DNA of 64,000 nt from positions 1 to 64,000 of the forward strand of contig JAPLPD010000110.1 in the NCBI GenBank assembly GCA_026400395.1, written 5' to 3'. The stretch comes from Alphaproteobacteria bacterium (GTDB lineage: Bacteria > Pseudomonadota > Alphaproteobacteria > Rhizobiales > Xanthobacteraceae). A model generated the notes under the pieces. It was not told the DNA's origin. It made no database searches and saw only the letters and a list, made by a program, of their open reading frames with translations. The position numbers were made by a program, and so were the translations under genes. This document shows positions 34,232 through 47,736 of this stretch, piece after piece. Within the stretch, counting starts at the first letter, position 1; every line of letters starts with the position of its first letter.

Positions 34232-35128
34232 TCAGACCAGCCGTTTTCGTACACTGGCGCTGAAAAGATCGATCAACACGACTGTGAGCACAACGATAAC
34301 AATTTGCGCCGCGGTCTCGGCATAGTGAAACGACCTGATGCTTTCATAGAGGGTTTGACCAATTCCACCGGCCCCGACGATGCCGAGCGTGGTGGCGGAG
34401 CGCACATTGGTCTCAAGTCGATAAAGAATGAAGGAACTCCATAGTGGAATGACCTGCGGAATGACGCCGTAGATGATTTCCGGAATTCGGCGTGCGCCCG
34501 TTGCGCGGATGCCCTCGACCGGACGGGGATCAATCGCTTCGACGGCTTCTGAGTAGAGCTTAGAAAATACGCCCATGTTGTGCACAAAAAGCGCCATCAC
34601 GCCCGCGAACGGCCCAAGGCCGACCGCCACGACGAATAGCAGCGCGAACATAATCTCGTTGATGGCGCGGCAGGCGTCCATGAGGCGCCGCACCGGTTGG
34701 ACCACCCATTGGGGCGCAATATTGGAGGATGAAAGGATTGCGAACGGCGCGCCGGCCACGGCGGCGAGCGCTGTGCCCCACAGCGCGATCTGCACGGTGA
34801 CGATCATATCTGCGAGATAGGCACGCCATTCGTGGAAATCTGGCCGCAGGAATCCGCGGCCGAACTCCGCCATATTTCGCCAGTCGGTGAACAGAGCGGT
34901 GACACGATCCATCTCCGCCGGGGCCCAGCTCCAGATCAATAGCGCGATCAGGATCAACCAGAGCGCCCAGTTTCGGGCGCGGTGCGCCATCGGCACTTGC
35001 GGTATCGCCGGCTCGGATCCGCCCCAGGCATCTTCCAGAGGGGGCTGCGCATACCTGCCCCGGGATAGAACGTTGATCTTGGTCATGGCGCCAGTCGGTG
35101 CTGCCAGCCGGCGTGCCGTGTCAGGCAC
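34232..35128 (-). CDS. phnE: Phosphonate ABC transporter permease
   Basis: VQIALWGTALAAVAGAPFAILSSSN; ATGARRIPEIIYGVIPQVIPLWSSFILYRLETNVRSATTLGIVGAGGIG. Confidence 0.9.
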   Translation of the reverse strand: MPDTARRLAAPTGAMTKINVLSRGRYAQPPLEDAWGGSEPAIPQVPMAHRARNWALWLILIALLIWSWAPAEMDRVTALFTDWRNMAEFGRGFLRPDFHEWRAYLADMIVTVQIALWGTALAAVAGAPFAILSSSNIAPQWVVQPVRRLMDACRAINEIMFALLFVVAVGLGPFAGVMALFVHNMGVFSKLYSEAVEAIDPRPVEGIRATGARRIPEIIYGVIPQVIPLWSSFILYRLETNVRSATTLGIVGAGGIGQTLYESIRSFHYAETAAQIVIVVLTVVLIDLFSASVRKRLV

Positions 35129-35149
35129 GGCACGCCGGCTGTTGCTCGA

Positions 35150-36259
35150 TCAGTTCGTGCCGGCAAAGCCCGCCGCGAACTCGGCGATCATCTTCCTGAC
35201 GGCCTCCTTGTCGCCAGCCTTGTCGGCCGCGACAAAAGCATCGACGCGCTTGCCAAAGGCATCACTGTCTGCAAGCTTCTCCGCGGCCTCGATCTTGGCG
35301 ATCTCAGCCTTGATCTTGCTCACGCTTGACGCTTTCTCATCCGCCGATAACTTGTCGTCGCCCTGAGCCTTCATCAGGTCCTTGTTGGCTTCGAGCTTGC
35401 GAATGGCGATGAGTTGCCGGTCCGACGACGGCCGAAACGGCGACCAGATCAGATTGGCCAGAACCTCGCCCTCCGCCTTTGTCTGTTCCTCGGAGCCGAA
35501 ACGGCCGTAGCTGAGCAAGAATGAATACAACTTGGTCTTGATCGCGGGATCCAGGTCCTTGCGCCACACTAAGGGGTCCAGCGGTATGATCGGAGAGGTC
35601 CAGATCACCTTGATCTGCTTGCGAGCGTCCGGCGCGCTGTGCTCAAGGCGCTGAAGGTCTTCGCTGTTGTTGGTCGCGGCCTCTACCTGCTTGTTAGCCA
35701 CAGCCATTGCGTTGGCCTGATGGCTGGCATTTCGCACAGTCTTGAAGCAGCTTTTTGGGTCGATGTCCTTGGCGGCAAAGATGTAGGACGTGGGCACCAG
35801 GAATCCCGAAGTGGAGTTTGGGTCGCCAATGCCGAAGTTGAGCGACTTGTCGCACTTAAGGATGTCCTCGACCTTGGTGTAGGGGCTGTCGGCGCGCACG
35901 ACGATGTGAGAGTAGTAGCCATCGCTACCATTTTTCGCGATCACCTGCGCGAAGACCTCGCCGTTCGAGCGATCGACGGCCTCGATTGCGGACTTGTTAC
36001 CGAACCAGGCGACATGCACCTTGTTAAAGCGCATCGCCTCGATCACCGCGGCATAGTCGGTCGCATAGAACGCTTTTATCTTCAACCCAGTGACCTTCGA
36101 CATCGATTCGATGAAGGGCTCCCAGTTCTTCTTCTGGTTGGCCGAAGCTTCGGTCGAGATTACGCCGAAATTGATTTCCGCGGGTGTCTCAGCTTGCGCA
36201 AGCGTGCTGCTGGCCAGCGCGATGGCCGCGAATGCGGCGTTCCGGAAGTACGATATCAT
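35150..36259 (-). CDS. phnD: Phosphonate ABC transporter substrate-binding protein
   Basis: EINFGVISTEASANQKKNWEPFIESMSKVTGLKIKAFYATDYAAVIEAMRFNKVHVAWFGNKSAIEA. Confidence 0.92.
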   Translation of the reverse strand: MISYFRNAAFAAIALASSTLAQAETPAEINFGVISTEASANQKKNWEPFIESMSKVTGLKIKAFYATDYAAVIEAMRFNKVHVAWFGNKSAIEAVDRSNGEVFAQVIAKNGSDGYYSHIVVRADSPYTKVEDILKCDKSLNFGIGDPNSTSGFLVPTSYIFAAKDIDPKSCFKTVRNASHQANAMAVANKQVEAATNNSEDLQRLEHSAPDARKQIKVIWTSPIIPLDPLVWRKDLDPAIKTKLYSFLLSYGRFGSEEQTKAEGEVLANLIWSPFRPSSDRQLIAIRKLEANKDLMKAQGDDKLSADEKASSVSKIKAEIAKIEAAEKLADSDAFGKRVDAFVAADKAGDKEAVRKMIAEFAAGFAGTN

Positions 36260-36330
36260 TCTGGTTGGTCCTTGTTGCCGTGTAAGCGGAGGCGGCGCCG
36301 TGTCGCTCCCTGCGACGCGGTACCAAGCGA

Positions 36331-37254
36331 TTATGCGTGAGCGCTTGTTCGGTGTTCGGTCGGCATACGGTGCGATGGATCGAAAGAGATGGCCCCATTA
36401 ATCGCGGCGGTGGGGGCCTCGGCAGCGGCTACAGCGGTTATGGGTTTCGAATCGATCGCGGCGAACAGGTCGTCGGTTTCCGAACCGTAGATCGATCCCA
36501 GGAATTCCCGTGTGAGCGCGGACGACGGCCCATCATAGACCACCTCACCAGCCTTTAGTGCGACTGTGCGTGGACAGTAGCGCAGCGCATACTCGACCTG
36601 ATGCAGCGAGACAAGAACCGTGATGCCGTCGCGACGGTTGAGGTCCGAGAGAATGTCCATAACGTTGCGCGCCGAGTGGGGATCGAGCGATGCAATCGGC
36701 TCGTCGGCGACTATGAATTCGGCACCCTGCATCAGCGCGCGCGCGATTGCCGCCCGTTGCTGTTGGCCGCCGGAAAGATCGCAACCACGCTTGAGCGCAT
36801 GCTCAGCAATGCCGACCCGGGTCATAGCTCGCATGGCGCAGCGTTTCGCTTCCGTTGAGAACTGTCCGAGGCTTGCCCGCAAAAATGGCATGCGGCCGAG
36901 CCGCCCAAGGCAGACATTGGTCAGCACCGACAGCCGCGGAACCAGATTGAACTGCTGGAATATGACGCCGGTGCGCGCGCGTAATGCATTCGCCGCGCCG
37001 GCAATCCGCCCGCGCTGTTGCATTGGTTGCGAAAATAGCAGGATTTCCCCCGCCTGGCCGGAGCCATTGGTGACGCGGTCGATCGGCGTGAGCCCGGCGA
37101 TGGAGCGGATGAGCGTCGACTTCCCGGAACCCGATGCGCCGATCAGGGCGACCATCTCGCCGCGACCAAGCTCGAGGCTTACCTCCCGGAGCACCCTTAC
37201 GCCGGCGAAGGTCTTGGAAACCTTGCGCGCTTGAACGACGGGTTCGGTCCGCAC
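36331..37254 (-). CDS. phnC: Phosphonate ABC transporter ATP-binding protein
   Basis: IGASGSGKSTLIRSIAGLT; LSGGQQQRAAIARALMQGAEFIVADEPIASLDP; next to phnD/phnE. Confidence 0.9.
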   Translation of the reverse strand: MRTEPVVQARKVSKTFAGVRVLREVSLELGRGEMVALIGASGSGKSTLIRSIAGLTPIDRVTNGSGQAGEILLFSQPMQQRGRIAGAANALRARTGVIFQQFNLVPRLSVLTNVCLGRLGRMPFLRASLGQFSTEAKRCAMRAMTRVGIAEHALKRGCDLSGGQQQRAAIARALMQGAEFIVADEPIASLDPHSARNVMDILSDLNRRDGITVLVSLHQVEYALRYCPRTVALKAGEVVYDGPSSALTREFLGSIYGSETDDLFAAIDSKPITAVAAAEAPTAAINGAISFDPSHRMPTEHRTSAHA

Positions 37255-37309
37255 GGTGCAACTCCGGTTGCATGCCAGAATGGCACTAGTGCCGGACTAA
37301 CAGCGACGC

Positions 37310-37455: not shown

Positions 37456-38625
37456 TCAGTGACCGAGCCGGCTGGGCTCGGTCAGGTACACGATGCGCCC
37501 CTTTGAGATGGAGGCGACGACGCGGAGTGGTTGCGGCGGATCGTTCGCAACGAGAATGATGTCGGCTCGTTTGCCGTTCGCGATCTCACCGCGGTCGTTG
37601 AGGCCGACCGCACGCGCTGGCGCGCTGGAGACGAGGCGCCATGCCGCTTCAAGAGGTGCCACGCGGGTTTCGACCAGCCGGAATGCCGCGATCAGAGGTG
37701 CCGGATAGTAGTAGTCCGACGCGAGCACGGAGCAGAGTCCGAGCGAAACCATTTCGCTCGCGTTGACCCAGCCCATGTGGCTCTTGCCGCGCATGACATT
37801 CGGCGCGCCGAATACGATCTGGTCACCCGCGTTGGAGGCATCCCGCGCCGTTTCGATGTTGACCGGGAATTCACTGACCCGGCAGCCCAGCGTGCGGAAC
37901 CATCGCCGTTGCTCGGGGCTCGCGTCATCATGCGACAACAAAGCAACGCCGTTGGCCTGAGCTCTGCCGGCGATCCGCGTAATCGATTCGGGCACGGCGT
38001 CGCGCATGCCGTGCAAACGCTGCACCAGAGCCAGGAAATCCTCGCGTGGGATACCGGCGCGCTCGACCATCTGGTTGAGCTTGTCCGGACGCTTCATGTG
38101 ACTGTCCGAGGCTGGCAGGTGATCGTTGAAGGCGACCGCGCCGACGCGGCGCGCGTCAACCCATTCGCAGACCTCACTTTCGGCGGCGAAGTTGAATGTC
38201 TCGTGGCGAAGGTGATAGTGGGTGTCGGCCGCAAGCTGCTGTTTGAGCCGCTCAATGCCATCCAGGATCGCGCGCGCGTTTTCGGATCCGCGCAGACCAG
38301 GCTCCCAGGACCATGTCACGCCATGAAAGACCGTGGTGATTCCGTTGGCGATAGCCTGACGGTCACTGTCAGACAGCGCGACCTCCAGAGCCACGTGAAC
38401 ACCCGGCCTTGGCATTATCTGACGCTCGAAGGCATCTCCGTGAATATCGACAATGCCCGGCAGGAGATACAAGCCGCGGGCGTCTACGATACGGGCCGAG
38501 TTGCGATCCGTGCCGATTTCGGAAATCACGCCTTCCGCAGCGCTCACGCGAACCGACGTGCCGACCAACCCCCGGTCGAGCAACACCTGCGCCCCGACGA
38601 TCCGAAGGTCCATGGGCTGGCTCAT
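37456..38625 (-). CDS. phnM: PhnM-like amidohydrolase, paralog 1 (transport-side)
   Basis: LLPGIVDIHGDAFERQIMPRPGV; ASDYYYPAPLIAAFRLVE; PhnM-type ending GEIANGKRADIILV. Confidence 0.85.
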   Translation of the reverse strand: MSQPMDLRIVGAQVLLDRGLVGTSVRVSAAEGVISEIGTDRNSARIVDARGLYLLPGIVDIHGDAFERQIMPRPGVHVALEVALSDSDRQAIANGITTVFHGVTWSWEPGLRGSENARAILDGIERLKQQLAADTHYHLRHETFNFAAESEVCEWVDARRVGAVAFNDHLPASDSHMKRPDKLNQMVERAGIPREDFLALVQRLHGMRDAVPESITRIAGRAQANGVALLSHDDASPEQRRWFRTLGCRVSEFPVNIETARDASNAGDQIVFGAPNVMRGKSHMGWVNASEMVSLGLCSVLASDYYYPAPLIAAFRLVETRVAPLEAAWRLVSSAPARAVGLNDRGEIANGKRADIILVANDPPQPLRVVASISKGRIVYLTEPSRLGH

Positions 38626-39308
38626 GCGACCGCGGTGGCGGCGCGGGAGCAGTCGCTCGCCTGCTCGTAACGGTCGAGAAACGCTTCGGCGGATAGATTG
38701 CGAAAATCCGCGAGCGTCTGGCGCAGTCGCTCATGCGGCCAGTCCCACCAGGCCAGGGCCTGCATGCGGACGGCGACATCTGCCGGAAATCGGCTTCGAA
38801 TCGGACGTGCAGGATTTCCGCCGACTATGGAGTAGGGCGCGACATCCTTGGTGACGATAGCGCCGGCCGCAATCACCGCGCCGTCACCGATGCTGCGCCC
38901 CGGCAGCACAATGGCGCCGTGCCCAATCCACACATCGTGGCCGATTGCGACGTGTTGACCGCGCCGCCAGTCGAAGAATTCGGTTTCGTCCCGTTCGCCA
39001 GCGAAGTACGCGCTCGCGCGATAAGTAAAATGCGACTGACTCGCCCGCTGCATCGGATGATTGCCCGGATTGATCCTGGTCATAGCGGCAATGGAACAGA
39101 ATTTTCCGATGGCCGCGTATGCGATGTCGCTGTCGTTGACGACATAGGAGTAGTCCGACATGGACACACCGAGCAGCTTGGTCCGGGCGCCGACCTCAGT
39201 GTAGCGCCCGAAAGCGCACTGTTTGACCTCCGCAGTCGGGTCGATCAACGGCTCATGGGACAGTGCTTCGGGCGACATGCAGTCATTGCTGCTTCTTGAC
39301 AATGACAT
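38622..39308 (-). CDS. Hexapeptide-repeat acetyltransferase of phosphonate operons
   Basis: LGVSMSDYSYVVNDSDIAYAAIGKFCSIAAMTRINPGNHP; HDVWIGHGAIVLPGRSIGDGAVIAAGAIVTKDV. Confidence 0.85.
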   Translation of the reverse strand: MSLSRSSNDCMSPEALSHEPLIDPTAEVKQCAFGRYTEVGARTKLLGVSMSDYSYVVNDSDIAYAAIGKFCSIAAMTRINPGNHPMQRASQSHFTYRASAYFAGERDETEFFDWRRGQHVAIGHDVWIGHGAIVLPGRSIGDGAVIAAGAIVTKDVAPYSIVGGNPARPIRSRFPADVAVRMQALAWWDWPHERLRQTLADFRNLSAEAFLDRYEQASDCSRAATAVA

Positions 39309-39354: not shown

Positions 39355-40125
39355 TCAACTGTCGATGACCAACTCCAGTCGGTCGGCCGCGAAGCGCGCC
39401 TGTGTCGCCAGGACCGGCGTATCGGCTTCGTCGATATCTACGCTATTCACGACAAGCAATGGCCGCCCCACGGCGATGCGAAGTAATCCGGCGTCACCGG
39501 CCTCGGCAGTCTCCGCGGTGACATGGGTGCTCTTTCGCGTGTAATTGCGGACGCCGAATCGAGCCAGTGTTCGGGTGATCGAACGATCAGCGGCATAGAA
39601 CGCCGCGGCATTGGGGAATCGGTGTGCATCAAGCCACGTTGTCGCGGCGCACAGTGGAATACGGTCGGCGTGGCGCAACAGTTCGAGCCGCAGGAGCTTT
39701 GATCCCAGCTTGATTTTCAGCCGCTTGGCCATCGTCGCATCGGCTGCTTCCACCGAGCTTGCGGTCAACCGGGCGCCGACAGCGTGACCGGCGCCGCCGA
39801 TAATCTCCGAGAATCGCGTTCGCTGCTTGATTGGATAGGGAATCCGGCGCTGCTCGATAAAGGTGCCGCTGCCGCGCTCGGCCCGGACCATGCCGCGCTC
39901 CGCCAGTGCGGCGATCGCGCGCCGCACTGTGTGCCGGTTCACTCCAAACCGCTCCGCGATCTCGATCTCGCCTGGAAGCCGCGTGCCGGGCTGGAATGTC
40001 CCACGCGCAATGGATTGCTCGATTTCGTCAGCGATCTGGCGCCACAGCGACACACCGGCCGAGATCTCGCGTTTGGGATCGGTGAACTCGACTTTCCGAA
40101 CGGTATGCCGAGTTATTGCTGTCAC
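39355..40125 (-). CDS. phnF: GntR/HutC-family regulator of phosphonate metabolism
   Basis: wHTH LWRQIADEIEQSIARGTFQPGTRLPGEIEIAERFGVNRHTVRRAIAALAERGMVRAERGSGTFI; divergent from phnG. Confidence 0.9.
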   Translation of the reverse strand: MTAITRHTVRKVEFTDPKREISAGVSLWRQIADEIEQSIARGTFQPGTRLPGEIEIAERFGVNRHTVRRAIAALAERGMVRAERGSGTFIEQRRIPYPIKQRTRFSEIIGGAGHAVGARLTASSVEAADATMAKRLKIKLGSKLLRLELLRHADRIPLCAATTWLDAHRFPNAAAFYAADRSITRTLARFGVRNYTRKSTHVTAETAEAGDAGLLRIAVGRPLLVVNSVDIDEADTPVLATQARFAADRLELVIDS

Positions 40126-40153: not shown

Positions 40154-40175
40154 GTTGTCTAGTAACATAGACAAC
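40154..40175. promoter_or_regulatory. Perfect palindrome GTTGTCTA-GTAACA-TAGACAAC, probable PhnF operator
   Basis: Perfect 8-bp arms between divergent phnF and phnG, 6 nt before the phnG ATG. Confidence 0.7.
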
Positions 40176-40181
40176 TTGTTA

Positions 40182-40664
40182 ATGGCAAATTCCGCAACCG
40201 ACATTTCCGCGAATGAAATGCAAACGCGTGAGCGCCGTCGCGAGGCGATGGCCGTTCTCACCCGCAGCACCGCTTGCGAGATTGCTCACTATTTCGCACG
40301 GATCGAAGCAGTGCCTGAGCATACCGAGCTTCGCCCGCCGCAAAGTGGGATTGTGATGGTTCGTGGGCGCATCGGGGGCGATGGGGCGCCGTTCAACTTC
40401 GGCGAGGCGACGGTTTCGCGCGCTGCCGTTCGGCTTGCGAGCGGAGAAACCGGGTTTGGCTATGTGCTCGGCCGCGATCAGGAAAAGGCTCGTCTCGTCG
40501 CTCTGTGCGACGCTTTGCTGCAAAGCGACATTCATCGCGACAGCGTCGATCGCGAGATGTTGACGCCAATCCGCGCCGCGCAAAATGCGGCGGACGAACT
40601 CACGGCACGGAAGACCGCCGCTACGAAGGTTGAGTTCTTCACGCTGGTGCGGGGCGAGGGCTGA
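40182..40664 (+). CDS. phnG: C-P lyase subunit PhnG (start codon uncertain; TTG at 40155 or 40176 also possible)
   Basis: RRREAMAVLTRSTACEIAHYF; PQSGIVMVRGRIGGDGAPFNFGEATVSRAAVRL. Confidence 0.92.
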   Translation: MANSATDISANEMQTRERRREAMAVLTRSTACEIAHYFARIEAVPEHTELRPPQSGIVMVRGRIGGDGAPFNFGEATVSRAAVRLASGETGFGYVLGRDQEKARLVALCDALLQSDIHRDSVDREMLTPIRAAQNAADELTARKTAATKVEFFTLVRGEG

Positions 40665-40665
40665 C

Positions 40666-41265
40666 ATGCTTACCGCAGGCTTCGGCAATCCTGTCTTATC
40701 GGCGCAGTCGACCTTCCGCGCGATCCTTGATGCCATGGCGCGGCCCGGCAGCGTGCAGCCAATCGGCGAGGCTGTAGAAGCGCCTGGGCCTATGTCCGCC
40801 GGAGCTGCGGCACTTGCCTTGACGCTTTGCGATCATGACGCGCCGGTGTGGCTCGACGACGGTCTGCGCCAACACGAGGCGGTCAGTGAATGGTTACGCT
40901 TTCACTGCGGTTGCCCCATCGCGTCGAGCAAGGCCGAAGCAGCTTTTGCATTTATCAGCGATCCTGACGCGCTTCCGTCATTCGACGAGTTCAACCTCGG
41001 GACGGTGGATTATCCTGACCGCTCCACAACCGTCGTTATGCAAGTCGCATCATTCGACGTTGGCCCGACCTTGGCACTTGCTGGCCCTGGCATCAAAGCG
41101 CGAACCGCGTTTCGGGCTTCGCCGCTGCCGGCGGACATGCCTGAACGGTTGGCTGTCAATCGTCGGCTGTTTCCACGCGGCGTCGATCTGATTTTGGTGA
41201 CGGCCAATACCGTCGCAGCTTTGCCACGCTCGATCCGTCTCATGGAGCGCATGGAATGTACGTAG
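40666..41265 (+). CDS. phnH: C-P lyase subunit PhnH
   Basis: GFGNPVLSAQSTFRAILDAMARPGSVQPI; synteny. Confidence 0.93.
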   Translation: MLTAGFGNPVLSAQSTFRAILDAMARPGSVQPIGEAVEAPGPMSAGAAALALTLCDHDAPVWLDDGLRQHEAVSEWLRFHCGCPIASSKAEAAFAFISDPDALPSFDEFNLGTVDYPDRSTTVVMQVASFDVGPTLALAGPGIKARTAFRASPLPADMPERLAVNRRLFPRGVDLILVTANTVAALPRSIRLMERMECT

Positions 41266-42353
41266 CGGCAAAAGGCGGCGAGCGCGCGATCGAGAATGCG
41301 CACCGGTTGCTGGCGCACGAGCGGCGCGGCGACACATCGGTTCCGGAGTTGTCGCTTGCGCAGATAGAAGGTCAAATGGCTTTCGCCGTTGATCGGGTGA
41401 TGAACGAAGGGTCGCTCTACGACCGAGAATTGGCCGCTTTGGCAATTAAACAGGCGCGTGGGGATTTGATCGAAGCTATCTTTCTTCTGCGTGCCTTTCG
41501 CGCGACGCTGCCGCGTATTGGCGTAAGCGAGCCAATCGAGTCCTCCGCGATGACCGTGCGGCGGAGGATTTCCGCTGCGTTCAAAGATTTGCCAGGCGGG
41601 CAAGTTCTCGGCCCCACTTTCGATTACACGCATCGGCTGCTGGAGCCGCAGTCGCTGGATGTCGTTGTCGAGCCGGCGCTGGCTGATGCCGATGTCGCGT
41701 CATCGCCCCGCGTCACCGATCTGCTTGCAGCCGACGATCTGGTCGAGCCTTCGCCGCGGCCGGAAGGCAACGTGCCGGTCGGTGATCTGACCCAAGACCC
41801 GCTCGAATTCCCGGCTGGTCGCGATCTTCGCCTGCAGAACCTCGCACGCGGCGACGAAGGGTTCTTGCTGGCGCTCGGCTATTCCACGCAACGAGGTTAT
41901 GGCCGCAACCATCCCTTCGCAGGAGAAATCAGGCTGGGCGAGGTCGAGGTCGAATTCTCCCCGCCAGAACTCGGCTTTGCGGTGCCGCTTGGCCGGATCA
42001 CCGTGACCGAATGTCAGATGATCAATCAGTTTCGTGGCACTGCCACCGAGCCGCCGCGCTTTACCCGGGGGTACGGTCTCGGCTTCGGCCATTGCGAGCG
42101 CAAAGTTATGGCGATGGCGCTTGTCGATCGCGCGCTGCGCGCGCGAGAGCTTGAGGAGGAGGTCAAAGCGCCGGCGCAAGACGAAGAATTTGTCCTTTCT
42201 CACTCCGACAACGTGCAGGCAACCGGCTTTGTCGAGCACTTGAAGCTGCCGCACTACGTCGATTTCCAGGCGGAGCTTGGTCTGGTTCGGAGTCTTCGCA
42301 AGCGGTTTCAAGATGCAGCGACGGGCGAGTCGGTCAGAGAGGCCGCAGAATGA
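41256..42353 (+). CDS. phnI: C-P lyase subunit PhnI
   Basis: MYVAAKGGERAIENAHRLL; GYGLGFGHCERKVMAMALVDRAL. Confidence 0.95.
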   Translation: MYVAAKGGERAIENAHRLLAHERRGDTSVPELSLAQIEGQMAFAVDRVMNEGSLYDRELAALAIKQARGDLIEAIFLLRAFRATLPRIGVSEPIESSAMTVRRRISAAFKDLPGGQVLGPTFDYTHRLLEPQSLDVVVEPALADADVASSPRVTDLLAADDLVEPSPRPEGNVPVGDLTQDPLEFPAGRDLRLQNLARGDEGFLLALGYSTQRGYGRNHPFAGEIRLGEVEVEFSPPELGFAVPLGRITVTECQMINQFRGTATEPPRFTRGYGLGFGHCERKVMAMALVDRALRARELEEEVKAPAQDEEFVLSHSDNVQATGFVEHLKLPHYVDFQAELGLVRSLRKRFQDAATGESVREAAE

Positions 42354-43225
42354 CGGCGCCAGCCTACAACTTCGCTTATCTCGACGAGCAAACCAAGCGG
42401 ATGATCCGCCGTGCCATTCTCAAGGCGGTGGCGATACCTGGCTACCAAGTGCCGTTTGCAAGCCGTGAGATGCCGATGCCCTACGGCTGGGGCACTGGCG
42501 GCGTGCAGGTAACGGCGGCGGTGCTCGGCCCCGATGACATCCTTAAGGTGATTGATCAAGGCGCCGATGATACGACTAACGCCGTCTCCATCCGCAAGTT
42601 CTTTATCAAGACGGCCGGCGTTCGCACCACGACAGAAACGTGCGAGGCGACCGTCATTCAGACGCGTCATCGCGTACCTGAGACGCCGCTTTCAGAAAAG
42701 CAGATACTCGTCTTTCAAGTGCCGATTCCGGAGCCGCTCCGTTTTCTCGAACCGCGAGAGACAGAAACCCGGCGCATGCACGCTCTCGCCGATTACGGCC
42801 TCATGCATGTGAAGCTCTACGAAGACATCGCGCATTACGGTCACATCGCGACGGCCTATGCCTATCCTGTAAAGGTTGACGGCAGATATGTGATGGACCC
42901 GTCCCCGACGCCAAAATTCGATAATCCAAAGATGGATGGCTGCGCCGCGCTGCAGCTTTTCGGCGCCGGGCGGGAAAAGCGGATCTACGCGGTGCCGCCC
43001 CATACAAGCGTTGTTTCGCTCGATTTCGACGACCATCCCTTCGAGCCCTACCGACTGGATGGCGCTTGCGTGCTGTGTGGAGCCGACGACAGTTATCTGG
43101 ACGAGGTCATCACTGACGATCGAGGCGCCCGCATGTTCGTCTGCTCGGATACCGACTTCTGTGCTGGACGCCGTTCCGCCGCTTCATCCGCCGAAGGTCT
43201 GGACGCGGAGCGGCGGCGTGACTGA
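42350..43225 (+). CDS. phnJ: C-P lyase radical-SAM subunit PhnJ
   Basis: YNFAYLDEQTKRMIRRAILKAVAIPGYQVPFASREMPMPYGWGTGG; CxxC...CSDTDFC cysteine cluster. Confidence 0.96.
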   Translation: MTAPAYNFAYLDEQTKRMIRRAILKAVAIPGYQVPFASREMPMPYGWGTGGVQVTAAVLGPDDILKVIDQGADDTTNAVSIRKFFIKTAGVRTTTETCEATVIQTRHRVPETPLSEKQILVFQVPIPEPLRFLEPRETETRRMHALADYGLMHVKLYEDIAHYGHIATAYAYPVKVDGRYVMDPSPTPKFDNPKMDGCAALQLFGAGREKRIYAVPPHTSVVSLDFDDHPFEPYRLDGACVLCGADDSYLDEVITDDRGARMFVCSDTDFCAGRRSAASSAEGLDAERRRD

Positions 43226-43688
43226 CGAGCCACCAATTCAAATCAGGCCGGCTCTGAACGAGGACTTGCAGTCTATCTTGGCGCTTTACGCGCAGCCCGA
43301 TTTCGACAATGGAAACGTGATCTCGACGGCCGATGCGAGCCGCCTGCACGCGCGCTTCGCCGATTATCCGGACTACACGCTCTATGTGGCGGAACGGGGC
43401 AGCGTGGTGGTTGGAAGTTTCGCGCTGCTCGTGATGGATAATCTCGGGCACCTCGGTGCGCCGTCGGCGATTGTGGAGGATGTTGTTGTAGCTGCCAGCT
43501 TGCAGGGTGGCGGCATCGGCGGAGCGATGATGAGCTTTGCCTGCGATATGGCGCGCCGGAAGCGCTGCTACAAGCTGATGCTGTCTTCCAACGCGCGGCG
43601 CGAGCGTGCGCACATCTTCTACGAGTCGCTCACGTTCGAGCGTCATGGCTACAGTTTTCGCCTCGATCTCGAGCCGGTGTCGCCGTGA
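43218..43688 (+). CDS. GNAT-family acetyltransferase embedded in the phn operon (PhnO-like candidate)
   Basis: GTG start overlaps the phnJ stop; VEDVVVAASLQGGGIGGAMMSFACDMARRKRCYKLMLSSNARRERAHIFYESLTFERHGYSF. Confidence 0.75.
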   Translation: MTDEPPIQIRPALNEDLQSILALYAQPDFDNGNVISTADASRLHARFADYPDYTLYVAERGSVVVGSFALLVMDNLGHLGAPSAIVEDVVVAASLQGGGIGGAMMSFACDMARRKRCYKLMLSSNARRERAHIFYESLTFERHGYSFRLDLEPVSP

Positions 43689-44470
43689 AGGACAACGAAG
43701 ACGAGCCGTTGCTGGTTGCCGAGGGCCTGACGAAGCGCTACGGCCGCCAGACGGGCTGTCAGGACGTTTCCTTCGAGCTCTACGAGGGCGAGGTCATCGC
43801 GGTGGTCGGCGAGTCCGGTTCCGGGAAGTCTACCCTGCTGCAAATGCTCTGCGCGCAGATGGAGGCGACGTCTGGCCGCGTGCTCTACCGCAAGCGTGAT
43901 GGCGTCATGTGCGATCTCGCGGCAATGGACGAGGCGGAGCGCCGCTTTCTGGCGCGCACCGATTGGGGCTATGTGCACCAGGATCCGACCATTGGCCTTC
44001 GGATGGCCATTTCGGCCGGGGGCAATGTCGGCGAGCGGTTGATGGCCGTCGGCCAACGCCACTACGGCCGCATCCGCGGCACGGCAACGTCGTGGCTCAA
44101 TCGGGTGGAGATTGATCCGGTACGTATCGATGACAGCCCGCGGACCTACTCGGGGGGCATGCGCCAGCGGCTGCAGATTGCTCGCAATCTCGTCACCGAG
44201 CCGCGTCTTGTCCTGTTGGATGAGCCGACGGGTGGTCTCGATGTTTCGGTGCAGGCGCGGCTGCTCGATCTGCTGCGCGGCCTGGTAGCAGATCTAAAGC
44301 TGTCCGCGGTCGTCGTGACCCATGATCTCGCTGTCGCGCGGCTGCTTTCCCATCGGATCATGGTTATGCGCGGCGGCAAGGTCATCGAAAGCGGATTGAC
44401 CGATCAGGTACTCGACGATCCACGCGAGCCGTATACGCAGCTCCTCGTCGCATCGATCCTTCCGCTATAG
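43685..44470 (+). CDS. phnK: PhnK ABC-type ATPase of the C-P lyase complex
   Basis: VGESGSGKSTLLQMLCAQM; DWGYVHQDPTIGLRMAISAGGNVGERLMAVG; TYSGGMRQRLQIARNL. Confidence 0.94.
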   Translation: MKDNEDEPLLVAEGLTKRYGRQTGCQDVSFELYEGEVIAVVGESGSGKSTLLQMLCAQMEATSGRVLYRKRDGVMCDLAAMDEAERRFLARTDWGYVHQDPTIGLRMAISAGGNVGERLMAVGQRHYGRIRGTATSWLNRVEIDPVRIDDSPRTYSGGMRQRLQIARNLVTEPRLVLLDEPTGGLDVSVQARLLDLLRGLVADLKLSAVVVTHDLAVARLLSHRIMVMRGGKVIESGLTDQVLDDPREPYTQLLVASILPL

Positions 44471-44477
44471 GCCCAAC

Positions 44478-45176
44478 ATGCAGGCTGCACTCGAACTGAC
44501 CGGAGTCGCCAAGGGCTTCACCATGCACCTGCAGGGTGGCGTGCGCTTGTCCGTGGTGTCGAACGTGACGTTCTCGGTGCGGGCCGGCGAGTGCGTGGTG
44601 CTCGGGGGGCCGTCTGGAGCCGGGAAGTCGTCTATTCTGAAAATGGTTTTCGGCAGCTATCGCTGCGACCACGGCCAGATATTGGTGCGCCGGCGTGCGG
44701 AGAGTATCGATATCGCCACGGCTCGAGCCCGTCAAATTCTTGCGTTGCGCAAGGACACGGTCGGCTATGTCAGCCAGTTTCTTCGCGCCGTTCCGCGCGT
44801 GCCGACCATCGACGTCGTTGCCGAGCCATTGGCGGGCTCGGGCACCTCTCGCGACGCTGCGCGTAGAAAAGCGACTGAACTTCTGCGCCGCCTTAATCTT
44901 CCTGGGCCGCTTTGGGGGCTGCCGCCCGCTACATTTTCCGGCGGTGAGCAGCAGCGGGTGAACATCGCCCGCGGGTTCCTTCCGAACTTTCCGATCCTGC
45001 TGTTGGACGAACCTACAGCCTCCCTCGATGCCGCCAATTGCGAAGTGGTGATGGAACTGATTGCCGAGCGCAAGCGCTGCGGTGCAGCGATCGTCGCGAT
45101 CGTACACGACCACAACGTCCGGGATCGGATCGCGGACACCGTGATCGATATGACCCGTTTTGCTGAAATCGCGTGA
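44478..45176 (+). CDS. phnL: PhnL ABC-type ATPase
   Basis: LGGPSGAGKSSILKMVFGSYRCDHGQILVR; FSGGEQQRVNIARGFLPNFPILLLDEPTASLD. Confidence 0.94.
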   Translation: MQAALELTGVAKGFTMHLQGGVRLSVVSNVTFSVRAGECVVLGGPSGAGKSSILKMVFGSYRCDHGQILVRRRAESIDIATARARQILALRKDTVGYVSQFLRAVPRVPTIDVVAEPLAGSGTSRDAARRKATELLRRLNLPGPLWGLPPATFSGGEQQRVNIARGFLPNFPILLLDEPTASLDAANCEVVMELIAERKRCGAAIVAIVHDHNVRDRIADTVIDMTRFAEIA

Positions 45177-45181
45177 GGACC

Positions 45182-46339
45182 ATGAGCGGACACCAAGCGG
45201 ATTGCATCCTCGGAAATGCTCGCATCGTGCTGGCCGACCGCGTCATCGAAAACGGATGGCTTGCGACGTCCGGCGGCATCATTGCCGAAATCGGCGAAGG
45301 CCGGCCGCCCGAGCACGGCGAGGATATGGAAGGCAATCTGGTGATGCCGGGTCTGGTGGAACTTCACACCGACCATCTCGAAGCACATTACGCTCCCCGT
45401 CCCAAGGTCCACTGGAATCCCGTCGCAGCGGTGGTGTCGTTCGACGGCCAGCTTGCCACCAGTGGCATCACGACAGTGCTCGATTCGCTGCGAGTGTGGA
45501 CGGAGGACGGAGCGGAAGAGGTCGATGGCCAGGCTGAGACGTTGGCCCTCGCCATTGCTCAAGCGCGGGCAGACGGCCTGCTGCGTGTGGATCACTTCCT
45601 GCACCTGCGCTGCGAGGTGCCTATGCCAAATGTCGTGGCGGAAGCAACGCGGTTGATTGGCCGCAGCGACGTGCGGCTCGCCTCGCTGATGGATCATACT
45701 CCGGGGCAGCGGCAGTTCCGCGACGAAAGCAAACTCCGCGATTACTACCGGGGAAAGAAGGGCGGCCTGACCGACGCCCAACTCGATGAGTTGTTTCGAA
45801 AGCGGATGGAGTATCAAGCGGCCTATGCTGCGGAGAACTATCGCAAACTCGTCGATTTGGCCCGCATCCACCATACGCCGCTGGCGAGCCACGACGACAC
45901 CACATTGGGGCATGTCGAGGAGGCTGTTCGAGATCGCGTATCGATCGCCGAATTCCCGACCAACATCGAAGCCGCCGAAGCGCTGCATGCGGGTGGCGTC
46001 CGGGTGCTGATGGGCGCCCCCAATCTGGTTCGTGGGGGGTCGCATGCCGGCAATGTCGCGACCTTGGATTTGGCAGAGGCGGGTGTGCTCGACGTGCTGT
46101 CGTCCGACTACATGCCGGCGAGTCTCTTGATGGCAGCGCTCTATCTGCCGAAGGTTACGCCAGGCATTAATCTTCCGGCGGCGGTGAGGACCGTTACCAA
46201 GACTCCGGCCGAAGCGGTAAATCTGGCCGATCGCGGCGAAATCGCGGTGGGAAAGCGGGCCGACCTCATTCGGGTACATGTCGCGGGCGAAGTGCCGGTG
46301 GTGCGCGCGACGTGGCTGCGCGGGGCCCGCGTCGCATGA
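45182..46339 (+). CDS. phnM: PhnM (ribose 1-methylphosphonate 5-triphosphate diphosphatase), paralog 2
   Basis: LVMPGLVELHTDHLEAHYAPRPKVHW; LASLMDHTPGQRQF; LSSDYMPASLLMAAL. Confidence 0.94.
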   Translation: MSGHQADCILGNARIVLADRVIENGWLATSGGIIAEIGEGRPPEHGEDMEGNLVMPGLVELHTDHLEAHYAPRPKVHWNPVAAVVSFDGQLATSGITTVLDSLRVWTEDGAEEVDGQAETLALAIAQARADGLLRVDHFLHLRCEVPMPNVVAEATRLIGRSDVRLASLMDHTPGQRQFRDESKLRDYYRGKKGGLTDAQLDELFRKRMEYQAAYAAENYRKLVDLARIHHTPLASHDDTTLGHVEEAVRDRVSIAEFPTNIEAAEALHAGGVRVLMGAPNLVRGGSHAGNVATLDLAEAGVLDVLSSDYMPASLLMAALYLPKVTPGINLPAAVRTVTKTPAEAVNLADRGEIAVGKRADLIRVHVAGEVPVVRATWLRGARVA

Positions 46340-46950
46340 GCTGGCTGGTCGATCTGCGGCGATACGCACGCAACAGCCCGAATTTGGTCGGGCCGGGCCG
46401 GTTGATCCTTGTGGTTGGCCCGAGCGGCGCCGGCAAGGACACGCTGATCGACGGTGCGAGGCGCGCTTGCGCAAGTGATTCCACCGTTGTCTTTGCCCGC
46501 CGCGTGATAACGCGGCCAGCGTCGTCCGCCGAGGACAATGCTACGGTTTCCGAACAGTCGTTCAATCAGTCCGTGGCCGAAGGCGCTTTTGCGATGTGGT
46601 GGGATGCGCATGGCCATCGTTACGGGATTCCGGCTGCAATCGACGAAGACATTCGTAAGGGCCGGACGGTAATCTGCAACGTGTCGCGTACGATTGTCGG
46701 TTTGGCTCGGAAACGCTTCGCTTCTGTCGTAGTGGTCTTGGTCACCGCACCCAAGCCGATACTGCAAGCGCGATTGGCGAGCCGCCTCCGAACGAGTGAC
46801 GGCGATATCGGTATCCGGATCGGCCGAACGGTGGAATTGACGTCGGTAGACTTGCCGGACATCGTGATTCAGAATGTAGGCTCACCGGACAGTGGAATCA
46901 GGCGGCTTTTGAATGCGGTTAGGGATCCCGGAATTTTTGTTGTCTATTGA
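46336..46950 (+). CDS. phnN: PhnN ribose 1,5-bisphosphokinase
   Basis: RLILVVGPSGAGKDTLIDGARR; FARRVITRPASSAEDN; MWWDAHGHRYGIP. Confidence 0.93.
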   Translation: MSWLVDLRRYARNSPNLVGPGRLILVVGPSGAGKDTLIDGARRACASDSTVVFARRVITRPASSAEDNATVSEQSFNQSVAEGAFAMWWDAHGHRYGIPAAIDEDIRKGRTVICNVSRTIVGLARKRFASVVVVLVTAPKPILQARLASRLRTSDGDIGIRIGRTVELTSVDLPDIVIQNVGSPDSGIRRLLNAVRDPGIFVVY

Positions 46951-47019: not shown

Positions 47020-47736
47020 TTATGGCGATGGAGACGCTTGGAGCGGTGCGTGGCTCAGAACTTGAAAGTTAGCGTTTGGATTCTCCTGTTTCATCAACGC
47101 CAGACGGTCAACGATCACATCCCGATCGCGACACATACGCCGAAAAACAGTTTTTAAAGTTGCCAGAGCGGTGTCACGATTGGCCGCAGCTATCTCCCCA
47201 GTCAAAGTCATATGAAATTGAAAGTCTGAAAATAGATATGGGTAGCCCCAGCGATCGAGATTATCGATTTGACTTGAATTGAGTTGGCCAGCGAGCCGTC
47301 GTGCGCGCTCCTGCGGTAACATAGATGCCCGAAAGGCGTCGAAAATGGTGGTGCAGTCCGCAGCGAGCGCGTTGAGGGTGGTATTGGGAAGTTCTGGTAC
47401 TAGAGCAGCGAATTTTCCGAGCATCTGTACCACCGGTTTGAAACGGGCCGAAGCTCGGCCCAAGTTCACGAAACTGCTGAAAGCGCTGACAAGGCTCGCC
47501 TCTGTGCACGACAGGGAAAGATAAAACGGAGCTTTAAGCGTGGTATGAAATCCGTAGCGCCGGGGCTCTTGTGTGACCTTTCGCCAGTCGTCCCGGTCGC
47601 CGGCAAACTCAGAGGGAGCGGTAACCGCCTCTCCGCTATAACAATCATATTGCAGAACGGCGCTGCCGAACTGGTACAAGTCAGAATTCGCCGCTGGCAC
47701 GAAATACACCGCATAGCGCGGTCGCTCGTTCGCCAT
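47020..47736 (-). CDS. DUF1045 phosphonate-operon protein, 2H-phosphoesterase-like
   Basis: Two HxT motifs: YGFHTTLKAPF and FQFHMTLTGEI; position next to phnN. Confidence 0.82.
   Translation of the reverse strand: MANERPRYAVYFVPAANSDLYQFGSAVLQYDCYSGEAVTAPSEFAGDRDDWRKVTQEPRRYGFHTTLKAPFYLSLSCTEASLVSAFSSFVNLGRASARFKPVVQMLGKFAALVPELPNTTLNALAADCTTIFDAFRASMLPQERARRLAGQLNSSQIDNLDRWGYPYLFSDFQFHMTLTGEIAAANRDTALATLKTVFRRMCRDRDVIVDRLALMKQENPNANFQVLSHAPLQASPSP

Follow-up and report, generated by a model that had tools for sequence, protein, structure and literature searches.

A DUF1045 protein encoded at the end of a C-P lyase cluster is predicted to supply the PhnP step in an alphaproteobacterium of the family Xanthobacteraceae, a reading to which we assign a probability of about 0.86. 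The absence of PhnP, the mutual exclusion of DUF1045 and intact PhnP across C-P lyase genomes, a fold match to a plant cyclic phosphodiesterase, and a PhnP homolog that has lost its active site all support this prediction. An earlier note on the 64-kb stretch of DNA analyzed here (the window) had proposed DUF1045 as a PhnP replacement; the genomic and structural side of that proposal gained support, the enzymatic activity is its predicted part, and the idea itself had already been published.

In the window, the cluster order is phnF(−), phnGHIJ, a GNAT gene, phnKLMN(+), and DUF1045(−), with DUF1045 convergent to phnN and 69 bp from its end at 46950 (Table 1). A second PhnM paralog, PhnM2, adjoins phnCDE in the window and is the immediate neighbor of DUF1045 in Bradyrhizobium-type loci; the window DUF1045 differs from the latter in being convergent with phnN rather than adjoining PhnM2.

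TABLE 1 Features of the phn locus (window positions) and of the PhnP homologs located beside DUF1045 (positions within the named loci)
Feature	Position	Strand	Basis or remark
phnC, phnD, phnE, phosphonate transporter	34235..37296	−	Stop-to-stop coordinates
PhnM2, second PhnM paralog	37456..38628	−	NF011987, 449.2 bits (cutoff, 253)
phnF, regulator	39355..40125	−	TIGR02325, 283 bits (cutoff, 156.8)
phnG	40155..40664	+	TIGR03293, 156.1 bits (cutoff, 89)
phnH	40585..41265	+	TIGR03292, 186.1 bits (cutoff, 91.5)
phnI	41256..42353	+	
phnJ, C-P lyase making the cyclic phosphate	42350..43225	+	PF06007, 486.9 bits
GNAT acetyltransferase, PhnO-like	43218..43688	+	NF007530, 29.4 bits (under cutoff, 142)
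phnK	43685..44470	+	Homology in related clusters
phnL	44478..45176	+	TIGR02324, 313 bits (cutoff, 256.3)
phnM	45173..46339	+	TIGR02318, 474.8 bits (cutoff, 390.55)
phnN, ribose 1,5-bisphosphokinase, taking the cyclic phosphodiesterase product	46312..46950	+	TIGR02322, 189.1 bits (cutoff, 156)
DUF1045/TIGR03223 2H phosphoesterase gene	47020..47736	−	238 aa; proposed 5-phosphoribosyl 1,2-cyclic phosphodiesterase
Second HxT motif, F174-H175-M-T177-L-T179	47200..47217	−	Sequence and conservation
First HxT motif, Y61-G-F-H64-T-T66-L-K68-A-P70	47527..47556	−	Sequence and conservation
PhnP homolog beside DUF1045 and phnN	L153:4504-5304; L154:4879-5679	−	Alignment

The DUF1045 reading frame runs from an ATG at 47736, with an AAGG Shine-Dalgarno-like stretch upstream, to a TAA at 47022-47020. 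Its product passes the Pfam profile PF06299 (DUF1045) with 148.8 bits (E value, 1.7e-43; cutoff, 24.3) and matches TIGR03223 ("putative phosphonate metabolism protein") over its full length with 220.5 bits, under the curated cutoff of 248.95 that several relatives exceed (e.g., L028 with 291 and L153 with 294.5); PF13563 (2_5_RNA_ligase2) is a weak match (E value, 0.0028). In an alignment of 38 homologs, residues R7, Y11, Y61, H64, T66, P70, R136, G164, Y165, and H175 were invariant, and T177 was kept in at least 90%. The paired HxT motifs of 2H phosphoesterases that the earlier note had seen beside phnN (FHTTLKAPF and FHMTLTG) are therefore both present in a genuine gene and conserved across the family, placing it in the 2H phosphoesterase superfamily. 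Two HxT motifs by themselves would be weak evidence, but a profile match along the entire protein, together with the fold prediction, indicates that they are not due to chance. Identity to named relatives is about 47% at most, and the protein belongs, as a divergent representative, to a known, uncharacterized family. Very divergent homologs scoring about 50 bits, with the motif YGLHYTVKAPF, were observed outside phn clusters in 1.4-Mb genomes (L026:9676-10290 and L027:9817-10431).

A PDB search with the single sequence returned no match, and the relation to characterized proteins surfaced only through a fold search. With an AlphaFold model (pLDDT, 95.3) as the Foldseek query against the PDB, the top matches (E value, ≤0.001) were 2H proteins with few exceptions, and they included YjcG, Appr>p cyclic phosphodiesterase, Usb1, and LigT, as expected of a 2H fold. 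The best characterized match was the Arabidopsis Appr>p cyclic phosphodiesterase (1JH6/1FSI; for 1JH6, E value of 3.8e-6 and TM score of 0.68 by target). Like DUF1045, the plant enzyme has a 2H fold with two HxT motifs, and it opens a ribose 1'',2''-cyclic phosphate so that the 1''-phosphate remains, a bond change equivalent to the PhnP step of E. coli; it shares 13% identity with the window protein, however, and has no link to phosphonates.

No PhnP was found in the window, where the earlier note had already reported an MBL-fold PhnP to be missing, or in the 5.3-Mb, 99.16%-complete genome, in which the best TIGR03307 match scored 33.8 bits against a cutoff of 272.25 and against 296 to 433 bits for genuine PhnPs in other genomes. 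The discovery of an ortholog elsewhere in the genome had been named as fatal to the proposal, and none came to light. With an HMM built from aligned PhnPs, metallo-β-lactamase (MBL) proteins of this genome scored 20 to 47 bits versus 307 to 421 bits for intact PhnP. Candidates rejected as PhnP were a 684-residue multidomain protein (L002), an MBL protein adjoining tatD (L005/L006), PqqB (L007), and, after inspection of the TIGR03307 and HMM results, the MBL matches L003, L004, and L008. A PHP-type cyclic phosphate hydrolase (KEGG phnPP; PMC8774927) offers an alternative fate for the same intermediate; its fold is not that of the DUF1045 protein, and it makes ribose 5-phosphate and avoids the PhnN step, and the intact phnN in the window argues against a need for that route.

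The distribution of the two enzymes was examined in 385 genomes of the alphaproteobacterial class, 65 with PhnJ and 320 without. Strong DUF1045 matches occurred in 63 of the 65 PhnJ-positive genomes versus 14 of the 320 PhnJ-negative ones, and PhnP above the cutoff occurred in none of the 65. When PhnJ-positive genomes from a draw across the phylum and from the class of genome G605 were added, the resulting 148 C-P lyase genomes comprised 122 with DUF1045 only, 22 with PhnP only, and 4 with neither; none had both above the cutoff. The anti-occurrence of phnP and DUF1045 that the earlier note had suggested checking thus holds, with no intact pair in 148 genomes, and DUF1045 accompanies C-P lyase in genomes without intact PhnP, although the pattern reflects few independent events: in a 65-row PhnJ tree, one to three changes suffice to account for the DUF1045/PhnP states, so that 122:22:0 does not represent 144 independent trials and a Fisher value for these counts is not usable as a probability. 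DUF1045 clusters from other classes group with the remaining DUF1045 clusters on this tree, and one host family (f193) holds both cluster types, on different PhnJ lineages. C-P lyase clusters therefore seem to travel with either DUF1045 or PhnP. DUF1045 lay within 15 kb of phnJ in 95 of the 122 genomes and was retained in the other 27 although unlinked or on another contig. Among 80 named GTDB DUF1045 loci, phnJ was found within about 10 kb in 56 and PhnP near DUF1045 in none; some phn gene lay within 1.2 kb in 74, mostly phnM or PhnM2 (34 counts each).

Two genomes of one genus (G823 and G941) appeared to carry both enzymes, in a cluster where DUF1045 separates phnM from phnN and a PhnP homolog comes next (locus L154 begins within the cluster). 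In both species, this homolog has lost H76, H78, D80, H81, H143, and D164, six of the seven metal-ligand positions of E. coli PhnP, as well as H200, and the replacements partly differ between the species. Its structural zinc site is retained, with C21, C23, C26, and H225 all kept, H222 is the only active-site residue left, and the reading frame is intact. All of these residues are kept in E. coli PhnP and in 12 of 12 aligned PhnPs from clusters lacking DUF1045. Between the two species, dN/dS was 0.49 for the PhnP relic, 0.38 for DUF1045, and 0.42 for phnN; the relic is possibly a structural pseudoenzyme. We therefore rejected these genomes as counterexamples to the exclusion, the PhnP homolog being without an active site. 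A dead PhnP is what takeover of the reaction by DUF1045 is expected to leave behind, here in one lineage; a wider search of the order around G823 yielded only these two genomes.

Both enzymes are missing from four C-P lyase genomes. Two of these (G161 and G259) have phnG-M in a cluster from which phnN is missing, one (G720) has a frameshifted phnN that may be a sequencing error, and one (G724) keeps phnN. Joint loss of PhnN and the phosphodiesterase fits the pathway, if PhnN depends on the ring-opening step. In clusters lacking PhnP, DUF1045, and phnN (L024:6660-7511 and L162:38-922), a calcineurin-like phosphoesterase lies directly before phnG and a PHP-domain protein is close by; the two were identified by eye and may be additional substitutes for the ring-opening enzyme. 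At L031:5600-6500 (minus strand), in an E. coli-type cluster without phnP, phnN is frameshifted, which could be a sequencing error. At L032:5950-6400, a tandem repeat array of HTIRTIRSGAIYCAMFGG units occupies the place after phnN where phnP is expected.

Conversely, DUF1045 is not exclusive to C-P lyase, given the 14 genomes that encode it without PhnJ. In 10 of these, it has no adjacent PhnM and stands beside unrelated genes; PhnM-DUF1045 pairs, some with PhnF, were found without PhnJ at L011:9252-11163, L015:8064-10252, L018:1-1263, and L019:9852-12579 and are either relics or parts of a separate ribosyl phosphate pathway. A broader scenario, which we put forward tentatively and with less than even confidence, is that DUF1045 took over in PhnP-bearing clusters, leaving a dead PhnP reading frame, and also acts outside C-P lyase in PhnF-PhnM-DUF1045 miniclusters or alone, and may there clear ribosyl cyclic phosphates that arise from other sources, for example PRPP breakdown.

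These genes could also mean that DUF1045 is a general ribose-cyclic-phosphate cleanup enzyme, acting for instance on 5-phosphoribosyl 1,2-cyclic phosphate from spontaneous PRPP breakdown, and was merely recruited to phn clusters. Its occurrence in PhnJ-negative genomes, largely away from PhnM, and the weak motif-bearing homologs in small genomes are in keeping with such a function, but a housekeeping enzyme should be widespread and DUF1045 is found much less often in genomes without C-P lyase than in those that have it, which makes this account unlikely. We find it more doubtful still that DUF1045 works together with PhnM or PhnM2 and that its substrate is not what C-P lyase makes but a by-product of the PhnM reaction. 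Of the 80 named loci, most have one or the other gene close by, and PhnM-DUF1045 pairs persist without C-P lyase; PhnP-type clusters, however, have PhnM yet no DUF1045, a cyclic PhnM product was not found described in the literature searched, and the dead PhnP would be left unexplained.

The small number of state changes on the PhnJ tree leads to another alternative, in which mutual exclusion reflects the shared ancestry of two cluster lineages, DUF1045 has no catalytic tie, and an unseen enzyme performs the PhnP step. Retention of unlinked DUF1045 in 27 genomes, the relic beside DUF1045 without its active site, and a phosphodiesterase fold that fits the missing step all speak against this alternative, and we regard it as improbable. 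The least probable account is that DUF1045 acts, like LigT or CPDase, on RNA ends or 2',3'-cyclic nucleotides, with its placement among phn genes reflecting phosphorus scavenging from nucleotides. LigT, YjcG, and Usb1 do share the fold, and PF13563 is matched weakly, but DUF1045 is tightly tied to C-P lyase genes and to the absence of intact PhnP, and RNA-processing genes are not prominent near it.

Replacement of PhnP by DUF1045 remains our preferred reading, and for it we infer a substrate, a scissile ester bond, and a mode of catalysis. Cleavage of the C-P bond by PhnJ gives 5-phospho-α-D-ribosyl 1,2-cyclic phosphate, which the 2H-fold protein would open to ribose 1,5-bisphosphate, and PhnN would then convert this product to PRPP. 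The HxT motifs (H64/T66 and H175/T177) may clamp the cyclic phosphate, one histidine activating water and the other protonating the leaving 2-oxygen, with no metal involved. 2H enzymes can cut either bond, and a 2-phosphate product would not feed PhnN. DUF1045 would thus be a nonhomologous substitute for E. coli PhnP: the reaction and pathway position are the same by proposal, whereas PhnP is a metal-dependent enzyme of the metallo-β-lactamase fold, unrelated in sequence and structure.

In E. coli, PhnP makes ribose 1,5-bisphosphate from 5-phosphoribosyl 1,2-cyclic phosphate (PMC3463581). That another protein replaces it is not a new idea (Podzelinska 2009; Martinez 2013; Hove-Jensen 2014). 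As relayed in PMC10574752, a SEED survey (Podzelinska 2009) placed rcsF, a 2H gene, in 16 operons without phnP; replacement of PhnP by a 2H protein is stated in PMC3840354 and in PMC8235418, which cites Hove-Jensen 2014. These RcsF/DUF1045/TIGR03223 "Phn_opern_protn" proteins, of the Sinorhizobium meliloti pSymB type, share family, neighborhood, and proposed role with the window protein. DUF1045 is also listed with PhnI, PhnJ, PhnL, and PhnM among the Phaeobacter proteins induced by phosphate stress (PMC10132767). The literature searched yielded no assay, mutant, or other biochemical proof for DUF1045, and in it we found no genome-wide test that includes unlinked genes, no dead PhnP, and neither solo DUF1045 nor PhnM-DUF1045 pairs in genomes lacking C-P lyase; these elements appear to be new here.

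Alphaproteobacteria are major users of C-P lyase, and their ring-opening enzyme is still only predicted. C-P lyase frees methane and phosphate from phosphonates, including glyphosate. If confirmed, the exchange would be a clean nonhomologous replacement, of a metal-dependent metallo-β-lactamase fold by a presumably metal-free 2H fold, with the dead PhnP as its transition, and many genes annotated as "DUF1045" could be renamed.
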